This document shows positions 10,388 through 64,000 of a stretch of DNA of 64,000 nucleotides, one piece after another. The DNA comes from an uncultured Gammaproteobacteria bacterium (GTDB taxonomy: Bacteria > Pseudomonadota > Gammaproteobacteria > Arenicellales > JAANXG01). A program made the translations under genes and the position numbers. The stretch covers positions 102,439 through 166,438 of the forward strand of contig CAMYMN010000002.1 in the NCBI GenBank assembly GCA_947259395.1. Direction: 5' to 3'. The number at the start of each line of letters is the position of its first letter. The first letter of the stretch is position 1. The notes beneath the pieces were generated by a model. The model was given only the letters and a program-made list of their open reading frames with translations. It had not been told where the DNA came from and searched no databases.

Positions 10388-10827
10388 GGCGATCCTCCAA
10401 TTAGTTGTCTAGTGTGTAACTTTAACGCGTTTACGATTCAACGCCCAGGCTTGGGCAACATTTGGTCCGCGAGCGTAATGTCGACGACGATCTCAGTGTG
10501 TCGATCGTGACCTGATAACATAAGCGCGTACTGCGGGGCGGAGGTCCGACACATGCTGTGCCCATCTGCGCCAGCGCCGCGCGCATTTTCAACAATAACT
10601 GCCGTCGTTCACAGCAGGCACAACGTACAGAACACTGATACACTAACGCGCATACTGCGCCAAGGCATCCCGTCCCTATTCATGAGTATACAGCGGAGGA
10701 ACACTCAACGTGTTGTTCAGGAAAACAATGGCATTTGACTGTCCAGGTTGCTTGGAAGGAATAGGGGCGCGATTAACGCCGCGCTGGATCAGTATTGAAA
10801 ACGTGCGCTTGGGCCGCGCTCGACAGG
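10388..10827. other. intergenic region upstream of the orphan terminator
   Basis: This 440-base gap holds the promoter side of the phasin-like gene and whatever transcript uses the terminator at 10828. The plus-strand ORF 10710-10943 runs through the terminator hairpin and has no recognisable domain, so I do not call it. I did not find a well-spaced sigma-70 promoter by eye. Confidence 0.4.
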
Positions 10828-10867
10828 AAAACAGGGGTCGGCGTCACAGACGCCGACCCCTGTTTTT
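10828..10867 (+). terminator. strong orphan Rho-independent terminator
   Basis: The arms AAAACAGGGGTCGGCGTC and GACGCCGACCCCTGTTTT pair perfectly over 18 bases around an ACA loop, and the second arm ends in TTTTT. The flanking genes point away from it (phasin-like leftwards from 10387, mlaA rightwards from about 10972), so neither annotated gene ends here. It may end a small RNA or a very short gene in 10400-10828. The symmetry means it could act in either direction. Confidence 0.75.
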
Positions 10868-10907
10868 GACCGCGCCAACGCGGCATGCAGCGACCCGATT
10901 GCTTCGC

Positions 10908-10943
10908 CATCATCCGGGATTCTTAGTGCAATATGCGCGCTAG
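10908..10943 (+). repeat. solo right end of the CTAG-type dispersed element
   Basis: The segment CATCATCCGGGAT-tcttaG-TGCAATATGCGCGCTAG aligns with the reverse complement of 26259-26290 (CATCCGGGAT...ATGCGGGCTAG). No partner left end is visible upstream. The internal ATG, followed by CGCGCTAGG, is the start of the ORF-track version of mlaA. Confidence 0.7.
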
Positions 10944-25347: not shown

Positions 25348-26269
25348 CGACGGGCCTCCATAAGGCAAGCGAGCGCAAGCACTTGTGGAGATGTCGGGGA
25401 CCCGAATCCGGGGCGATTTCGAGGCCCGGCAGCCGCAGCCCGTAACGTAGACCGGCGCGGTCGGCGTCGAGGGCCCAGCGGCACAATACACCGAGGCGCC
25501 CATCGACGTCGCCGCCATGGGTCGCGGTCCAGTCCAACCAGACGACGCCGCCGGTGGAGTCGCCGAAGCGTTTGGTCAACCACTCTGCCCCGCGCGCGGC
25601 GGCCTTCCAATGCACGTGTCGCGGGGGATCGGCCGGTTGATACGCACGCAGGCCCACGAAGTCGTCGCCGTCGACGCTCTGGCCGCGGTGGTGACGATGG
25701 GATAAATCCGGATCCTGGGGCCAGGGCAGCCGGGGCCCCGGGGCGGGATAGACCAAACAACGGTTTATAGGAAGTAACGGCTTCGCCCAGGTGTAGAGCA
25801 GGCCGAAGGGGAATGCGCTGGCTACCGAGAAGGCCGGACAGGGCAAGTAGCCGCGCCGCGGCGCTGCGACCGTCAGCGATGATGGGTGCGAGCTATGGGG
25901 TGCGATATCGACGCATCGGGAGTAGGAGTCGGATAACAACCACACCCCAGGTCGCCGCGTTTTGGACGTGTTATGGAGGTAAACCGGAAACCGCGCCGAC
26001 TGTCCCGCGAACACCGGCGTGGCATCCTTGATCGTCAGCCGTAAGCCGGTGACGTTACGGTGCGTGTACAGCATCGACACCAGGCCCACCGCGGCGAGCG
26101 TGAAGGTAAATCCGTACGCGAGGCCGTTGTTGTAATTGACCGCGGCCAGCAGCATCACCAACAGTAACAGCGCGAAGTACAGCCCATGGCGGGTCGGCAG
26201 CATGTACAAGCGCTGCCTGCCCAGCACATATTCGTCGGCGGAGTCGCCCACGGGTTCGCTAGCCCGCAT
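25337..26269 (-). CDS. DUF58 domain membrane protein
   Basis: The 310-residue protein has two N-terminal membrane helices (about residues 27-70) and a DUF58 region with the family motif DDFVGLRAYQPADPPRHVHWKAAAR. DUF58 proteins have a von Willebrand-like fold and almost always accompany MoxR AAA+ ATPases. The ATG at 26269 lies inside the left inverted repeat of the 26259-26505 element, so residues M-R-A are supplied by the element. A GTG at 26251, just outside the repeat, may be the ancestral start. The 3' end overlaps the transglutaminase gene by 11 bases. Confidence 0.82.
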   Translation of the reverse strand: MRASEPVGDSADEYVLGRQRLYMLPTRHGLYFALLLLVMLLAAVNYNNGLAYGFTFTLAAVGLVSMLYTHRNVTGLRLTIKDATPVFAGQSARFPVYLHNTSKTRRPGVWLLSDSYSRCVDIAPHSSHPSSLTVAAPRRGYLPCPAFSVASAFPFGLLYTWAKPLLPINRCLVYPAPGPRLPWPQDPDLSHRHHRGQSVDGDDFVGLRAYQPADPPRHVHWKAAARGAEWLTKRFGDSTGGVVWLDWTATHGGDVDGRLGVLCRWALDADRAGLRYGLRLPGLEIAPDSGPRHLHKCLRSLALWRPVGVF

Positions 26270-26505
26270 TTCTCACCAGGATCCCGGATGCTGGCGCAGG
26301 ACAGGTGCGGCTGAACGCCGGGCTGGAATGAGATGCATAGCCGTAGCTATGGATCGAGTGAAGCCCAAGTTCAGGCGTGCCTGGACCAGCCAGCGCCGGG
26401 ATAGGCAATTCAATTACAGACTGTCTGTCGAGCAACATGGAATATCCATATATTGACGGTACATTGAAAACTAACCATGGCCGCCTGGTGAGGAATGCGG
26501 GCTAG
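26259..26505. mobile_element. 247-bp inverted-repeat element (MITE-like), complete copy
   Basis: The ends CTAGCCCGCATTTCTCACC... and ...GGTGAGGAATGCGGGCTAG are inverted repeats that match at 21 of 22 positions. The interior carries CATAGCCGTAGCTATG and a segment with AGGCGTGCCTGGACCAGCC shared with 57857-57927. There is no transposase inside, so it would need one in trans. The CTAG at each outer end may be a target duplication or part of the repeat. It separates moxR from the DUF58 gene, which are normally contiguous. Confidence 0.8.
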
Positions 26506-51736: not shown

Positions 51737-51936
51737 CTGGTGGGAATATTGCACCACGGCGCCACGCCCCTGTTGTTCATCGCTCCAGGCGCGGCCTCCA
51801 GCCGCCCGATCCCGCCCCGGTTCCCAGAATGCAGCGGAGAAATCCGCAGTGTCTGCTCCATGAAATGGCGATGTTCGTTGTTCCTGTTTACTTGGTAACA
51901 ATGGGGGCGGGATCCTTGGTGCAATCCGCGGGCTAG
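51737..51936. repeat. degenerate 200-bp copy of the CTAG-type element upstream of polA
   Basis: The left end CTGGTGGGAATATTGCACCA and the right end TTGGTGCAATCCGCGGGCTAG are imperfect inverted repeats related to those at 26259 and 57688. The segment 51858-51915 (CCATGAAATGGCGATGTTCG through CTTGGTAACAATGGGGGCGGG) is shared with 63737-63795. The right end stops 20 bases before the polA ATG, so the element occupies most of the DUF2782-polA divergent promoter region. Confidence 0.65.
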
Positions 51937-57687: not shown

Positions 57688-58013
57688 CTAGTCCGAATAT
57701 TGCATCAGTATCCGGTAAACTGGCGCACACTGCGACTCCGCGCAGCACAAGGGACAGGGGCGGCTGAACCCCCTGCTGCGCTTGTGCTGCGCATAGTCGC
57801 AGTGCGAGGACAAGCACTGCAACGACACCAGCACAAGCGCCGGACTGGAGCGAAAGTCATAGCCGTAACTATGGCTTGAGCGAAGTCCAAGTGCAGGCGT
57901 ACCCGGACCAGCCAGAGCCCGGATAGGACACCGACCGTGTACAAAACGTACCCGGGCCAAGTGCTCTAGCTTCGGTATACAAAAACGGCCGACTGGTGCA
58001 ATATGCGGGCTAG
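57688..58013. mobile_element. 326-bp inverted-repeat element (MITE-like), second complete copy
   Basis: The left end CTAGTCCGAATATTGCATC and the right end TGGTGCAATATGCGGGCTAG are inverted repeats matching at about 19 of 22 positions. Both left ends in the window continue with ATCC...CTGGCGC. The segment 57857-57927 (CATAGCCGTAACTATGG, then CGTACCCGGACCAGCC) is shared with the copy at 26259-26505. It lies in the gap between two convergent genes, 49 bases after the TPR gene, and has no coding capacity. Confidence 0.8.
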
Positions 58014-63663: not shown

Positions 63664-63800
63664 CTGATCCGCATAATGCGCCATGGCACCCCGCGTCTAT
63701 TCATGGTATGCCTCGACGAGACCTGCAACCTTACTACCATGAAATGACGACGTTCGATACTCGATGTGGCTTGGTAACAATAGGGGCGGGACTATCCCGG
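63664..63800. repeat. degenerate element copy downstream of the PhoX-like gene
   Basis: The left part CTGATCCGCATAATGCGCCATGG resembles element left ends (CTAGCCCGCATATTGCACCA). The segment 63737-63795 (CCATGAAATGACGACGTTCG through CTTGGTAACAATAGGGGCGGG) is clearly related to 51858-51915. The right end is not clear. CCATAGCTATGAC at about 63843 echoes the palindrome inside the complete copies. Confidence 0.55.
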
Positions 63801-63885
63801 CGCTGACCCGGTTGCGACCGCGTGCATACGCGGTTCACTCACTCCATAGCTATGACTCTACCCCAGCGCGGCGCTCGTCCTCGCG

Positions 63886-64000
63886 CAGCAGGGGGGCTCG
63901 TCCTCGCGCAGCAGGGGGCTCGTCCCCGCGCAGCAGGGGGCTTGTCCCCGCGCAGCAGGGGGCTTGTCCCCGCGCAGCAGGGGGCTTGTCCCCGCGCAGC
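63886..64000. repeat. 22-bp tandem repeat array reaching the window edge
   Basis: Five units of CAGCAGGGGGCTTGTCCCCG+CG follow one another (63886-63908 is 23 bases, then four of 22), with a sixth starting at 63997; a partial unit lies at 63871-63885. Early units have CTCGTCCTC or CTCGTCCCC, later ones CTTGTCCCC, so the last three are identical. Each unit holds the mini-hairpin GGGG-cttgt-CCCC. The period is not a multiple of 3, which argues against a coding repeat. The array continues beyond the window. Confidence 0.85.

Follow-up and report, generated by a model that had tools for sequence, protein, structure and literature searches.

The array of 22-bp units that closes the window (the whole stretch of DNA analysed, 64,000 nucleotides) belongs to a miniature transposon (MITE) starting near position 63664, and it lies inside this element rather than beside it. 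The best explanation, to which we give a probability of roughly 0.78, is that the array is an internal minisatellite of a non-autonomous IS1380-family MITE, growing by slippage, with units that are also mobile as exact wholes. Judging by the matching ends and target, the MITE would be mobilised in trans by an IS1380-type transposase that recognises ends reading YTAR followed by CCCGCATATTGCACC. The 22-bp unit would sit in a fixed slot of the MITE's second hairpin arm, and the array, riding on the MITE, would grow and shrink by slipped mispairing, as its left-to-right gradient and homogeneous runs suggest. Three related units, alpha (22 bp), beta and gamma, would be inserted at new slots, each time as a complete unit with exact ends and without detectable target duplication, with the MITE, each other and a family of TGTCAT repeats as targets and hairpin-rich repeats favoured. 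The MITE assignment is strong. The units, all of which begin with CTTGT, sit in hundreds of short transposon-derived elements of the genus and seem to spread as exact whole units.

The only array reported by TRF spans 63873-64000 (period 22, 5.8 copies, 97% matches, score 212), which bears out an initial annotation of at least five tandem 22-bp units. Unit starts fall at 63874 (one extra G), 63897, 63919, 63941, 63963 and 63985, the last unit being cut at 64000, and the array gives four 20-mer matches (up to one mismatch) compared to 0.01 expected in shuffled sequence. The homogenisation toward the right edge that had been annotated also holds, with CTCGTCCTCG in the left units and CTTGTCCCCG in the right ones, as does the view that the period is incompatible with a coding repeat and that the array expands like a satellite. 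Across arrays, the first unit often carries CTCGTCCTCG and later ones CTTGTCCCCG; this gradient is our reason for proposing growth by slippage. Contig C2 is 166438 bp long and the window (G000:C2:102439-166438) forms its final 64 kb, so the array is open at the right and 5.8 copies is a minimum.

An array that stops exactly where its contig stops could be an assembly artefact, the refuting case foreseen in the initial annotation, and contig C27 terminates in such an array as well. We regard this as extremely improbable because bounded copies of the 22-bp unit exist elsewhere. The array junction pattern (up to two mismatches) has 33 matches in the genome of the window, G000 (4.1 Mb, 222 contigs, 86.6% complete), versus 0 in a reversed control; many of the matching arrays are internal to contigs, with flanking sequence on either side, and bounded arrays of the unit are also present in three related species. 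The alpha array at the end of C27 is accompanied by a sequence resembling the right half of such a MITE, in the opposite sense (L002, L041); contig C27 may be the continuation of C2, and a C2-C27 join is predicted. The findings also suggest why contigs of G000 can end at arrays of this kind.

The MITE copies of the window and the parts of the terminal copy are as follows.

63664-64000, + strand: MITE copy holding the alpha array, left part degenerate, right part past the contig end (module order as in complete copies; terminal inverted repeat, TIR, match at 63671)
63664-63686, + strand: target-like CTGA (63664-63667) and left TIR TCCGCATAATGCGCCATGG (63668-63686), which differs from the TIR consensus at 3 positions of the 16-mer core
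63690-63792, + strand: hairpin A module, CCCCGCGTCTATTC...CAATAGGGGCGGGAC, whose arms have partly decayed (supported by DNA matches with other MITE copies, among which the arms covary)
63793-63873, + strand: module B as far as the unit slot, ending in CCCCAGCGCGGCG (sequence reading, module comparison with other copies)
63874-64000, + strand: alpha array, 22-bp unit CTTGTCCCCGCGCAGCAGGGGG, five units plus a sixth that the contig end truncates (TRF, sequence reading)
10643-10943, + strand: complete MITE copy with a terminator-like hairpin and without the alpha array, used in the empty-site test (empty sites, TIR and modules)
26259-26505, - strand: MITE copy (TIR pair)
51737-51936, + strand: MITE copy (TIR pair)
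57688-58013, - strand: MITE copy with beta, plus alpha bearing a nested gamma (TIR pair, unit content)

The last 400 bases of the window have 43 matches in their own genome, and the neighbourhoods of these matches show a common element with inverted ends. The initial annotation was right to associate the array with a degenerate mobile element; rather than adjoining it, the array occupies the element's interior, in a slot common to other copies. Stretches totalling about 0.84 Mb were sampled, and the sampled sequence holds about 40 complete copies; complete copies are 98-437 bp long and without a transposase gene. Their ends, about 19 bp, read YTAR followed by CCCGCATATTGCACCAAGG (0.73 Mb sampled), and a search with the end sequence GCATATTGCACCAAGG, allowing up to three mismatches, gives 253 matches compared to 23 for the reversed control. 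A complete copy opens with a TIR and one of several left modules, often hairpin A; module B, with its small hairpin, comes next, then the unit slot, module D and the second TIR. For the copy cut by the contig end, the missing right half is predicted to read TTCAGCCGCCC...CCTTGG, followed by the right TIR. A terminator-like hairpin, GGGGTC...GACCCC followed by T-runs, is frequently present where module B has its small-hairpin slot (window 10643-10943; L128 5765-6080; L155 6691-6970), and hairpins look as if they had been exchanged at this slot.

Empty sites in relatives point to the insertion of whole elements. At window 10643-10943, where the window reads ACACTA, element, CTAGGG, two relatives are uninterrupted (ACACTAGGGG and ACACTACGGG). 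Along a 20-kb syntenic stretch, MITE copies are missing in relatives with about 4 bp remaining at the site, and at three sites relatives carry different MITE copies. The 4 bp to the left of the MITE equal the 4 bp to its right in no more than 13 of 61 copies versus 8.4 expected by shuffling, so the case for a target duplication rests mainly on the empty sites. Different MITE copies at the same intergenic sites of related species (L121 2143, 7314 and 10820 compared to L199, L200 and L201) suggest fast turnover or preferred sites.

The host element is very probably an IS1380-type MITE, because similar ends are found on a complete IS1380-family element of a sister species and on the annotated IS1380 elements ISPosp7 and ISPa33; the MITE is classed by its ends and not by a resident transposase in G000. 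Of the genus's PF01609 transposase loci, a single one, in G001, lies between MITE-like ends (CCCGGATATTGCACGA and CCTGGATATTGCACGA, next to TTAG and GTAG, respectively). It encodes a 437-aa transposase of the IS1380 family (NF033539, E 2e-121; PF13701, E 1e-167). No MITE-like ends were found at the PF01609 loci of G000, a genome 86.6% complete. In ISPosp7, ISPa33 and an Acidovorax element, the ends are of the type CTAG followed by CCCG- or CCTG-. Over 16 bases, the MITE TIR shares 13-14 with the G001 insertion sequence, 12-13 with ISPosp7 and the Acidovorax element, and at most 10 with ISPa33. The MITE resembles the IS1380 family in its CCCG[CG]ATATT[GT]CAC ends beside CTAG-like targets, but differs in having no transposase gene and a modular interior with unit arrays. 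For IS1247, a member of that family, the target duplication is listed as 5 bp (PMC3281130). A weaker locus, L212, has a MITE-length TIR pair beside a transposase fragment. A DDE_5 (PF13546) transposase was also considered as parent, and the one such locus in the genus was without matching ends. What emerges is a large MITE family linked to IS1380-type ends.

The three units differ in how they are distributed. Alpha has 38 matches in G000, 48 in G004, 27 in G002 and 19 in G005, and none in the 56 other genomes sampled; across GTDB genome contigs, the exact alpha 22-mer occurs in one other assembly, an uncultured gammaproteobacterium. Gamma (24 bp, CTTGTGCTGCGCGAAGTCGCAGTG) has 74, 76, 19 and 44 matches in the same four genomes and a few in other genera of the family. 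Beta (23 bp, CTTGTGCTGGTGTCGTTGCAGTG) is almost private to the species of G000, with 103 matches there, 2 in G004 and 1 in G005. Reversed controls gave 0 for every unit. Arrays of seven or more units occur, and different units may be mixed within an array or nested in one another. At the one beta-array locus compared in relatives, the entire element is absent from them.

Unit boundaries were examined in 72 clusters by joining the 11 bases on each side and seeking the joined sequence elsewhere. With whole units removed, an empty relative was found for 31 of the 72, although some of the matching sequences themselves belong to other unit arrays; with the right boundary shifted by 1-4 bases, 0, 1 or 2 were found. 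The strongest cases are for that reason the MITE slots, namely CCTGCA^CTTG for beta, GCGCGGCG^TTCAG for alpha, and GGGATCC^TTGG and CCCGA^TCCC for gamma.

These data could also be read without any movement of units, as an ordinary MITE minisatellite spread solely by MITE copying, recombination and slippage. Such copying and recombination could explain many cases, given that 59 of 76 unit clusters lie in or near MITEs (of the rest, 7 are near TGTCAT repeats and 10 in decayed copies or other places), that identical composites with gamma nested in alpha recur across several MITE copies, and that the array gradient is common to copies. Furthermore, comparisons of relatives showed no orthologous gain of one unit outside the MITE. 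We nevertheless find this reading rather unlikely. Units occupy several fixed MITE slots in both orientations and with exact boundaries, and beta has burst in one species whereas the MITE is genus-wide. Moreover, all three unit types occur at one slot before AAGGATCT in unrelated TGTCAT repeats of two species, directly before AAGGAT or AAGAATCT in TGTCATCCTGAG repeats:

L188: beta, with extra partial units
L152: alpha with nested gamma
L146: divergent alpha, with extra bases
L234 (G004): alpha, three units
L193 (G004): gamma, seven units
L182: gamma and beta

This second host, TGTCATCCTGAG...AAGGATCT, is itself dispersed, and its middle hairpin varies (L146, L180, L234 and others).

The exact boundaries are observed; from these, the nesting and the second host, we infer that the units are very small mobile repeats. 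More tentatively, and at somewhat less than even odds, we propose that the CTTGT units, at 22-24 bp, belong among the smallest mobile modules known. They would insert as exact units without target duplication, beside hairpins or within them, perhaps by way of a single-strand intermediate and by an enzyme not yet recognised.

Another reading is that the units are REP-like elements mobilised by RAYT (Y1) transposases. The units are very short, clustered extragenic hairpins that sit within larger palindromes, as some REPs and REPINs do (PMC3116915, PMC3733652), and the genus has RAYT genes. Unlike REPs, however, they have no GTAG or CGTC foot and form head-to-tail arrays rather than inverted doublets, and neither a unit nor a MITE end was found in any of the 18 RAYT loci examined. 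We therefore set this origin aside as highly unlikely. The two RAYT genes of G000 (L164 and L170) have repeated motifs of their own nearby, GGGTAGCGTCCCC and AATTAAGTAAACTGTCCCC.

Turning to structure, alpha contains an internal hairpin, CCYC-GCGCAGCA-GRGG, in which columns 7 and 18 pair (CG, TG or TA) in 165 of 171 units. Among the arrays listed, all units with the TA pair come from G004, which may reflect a single event. The mini-hairpin of the initial annotation is partly retained: a covarying hairpin exists inside the unit, but the annotated register, GGGG-cttgt-CCCC, has one pair disrupted in 14 of 86 neighbours. In gamma, each pair of a 5-bp stem (CTGCG/CGCAG) is kept in 92-101 of 102 units; beta retains only three of these pairs.

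At the level of the whole element, the predicted fold of two complete MITE copies, a TIR stem bearing arms, is far better than those of shuffled sequences (z -5.8 to -6.4), compared to z -2.1 for the left-degenerate copy of the window, and in a triplet test on hairpin A 10 of 18 arms are identical versus a shuffled mean of 3.5. Such folding (z about -6) and covarying arms would be expected if the element were a selected regulatory or structural RNA, with the array tuning neighbouring genes. Paired arms are, however, expected of a MITE, and because the copies share ancestry, the hairpin A test reports paired arms and not selection. Rfam gave no match, and a known RNA family was rejected; shuffled sequence folds as well as the alpha array alone (z +0.32), and a stable fold of the array by itself was likewise rejected. 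The structural or protein-binding role suggested in the initial annotation found no support. Given also the quick copy turnover and the same-site differences between species, we consider a selected RNA very improbable.

As analogues of this minisatellite-bearing MITE and its units, the closest architecture is that of the pneumococcal BOX element and the closest behaviour that of cyanobacterial small dispersed repeats, which were reportedly described by Elhai et al. in 2008. Such repeats are of about 20-27 bp, dispersed, tandem and precisely inserted into other repeats, and the CTTGT units have these properties. In papers citing that work, the cyanobacterial repeats are about 20 bp, tandem, probably mobile and precisely inserted, as in SDR5 within HIP1 (PMC2884548, PMC4390886). 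The likeness is one of behaviour: the units here have a gammaproteobacterial host and comprise related CTTGT-headed forms of 22, 23 and 24 bp. BOX, in Streptococcus pneumoniae, is MITE-like and intergenic, with end modules and boxB in variable tandem copy number, and its ends resemble ISSpn2 (PMC3049150). Our MITE shares the end modules, the internal module of variable copy number and the insertion-sequence-like ends; we liken the two in architecture and claim no membership. They differ in sequence and host, and in their ends, ISSpn2-like in BOX versus IS1380-matching here; in addition, the units of 22-24 bp take several slots, nest and also occur outside the element.

The CTTGT units are a good model for how repeats of less than 25 bp spread. 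A single genus offers a natural experiment, with three units sharing a head, clear slots, nesting, two unrelated hosts and a species-specific burst, so that target choice and enzyme become testable.

Several contigs end in or beside unit arrays, including the end of C27 (L002, L041), the ends of C11 and C92 and the start of C50. A run of N within a beta array (L153 13976-14080) indicates that scaffolding gaps fall in unit arrays too.
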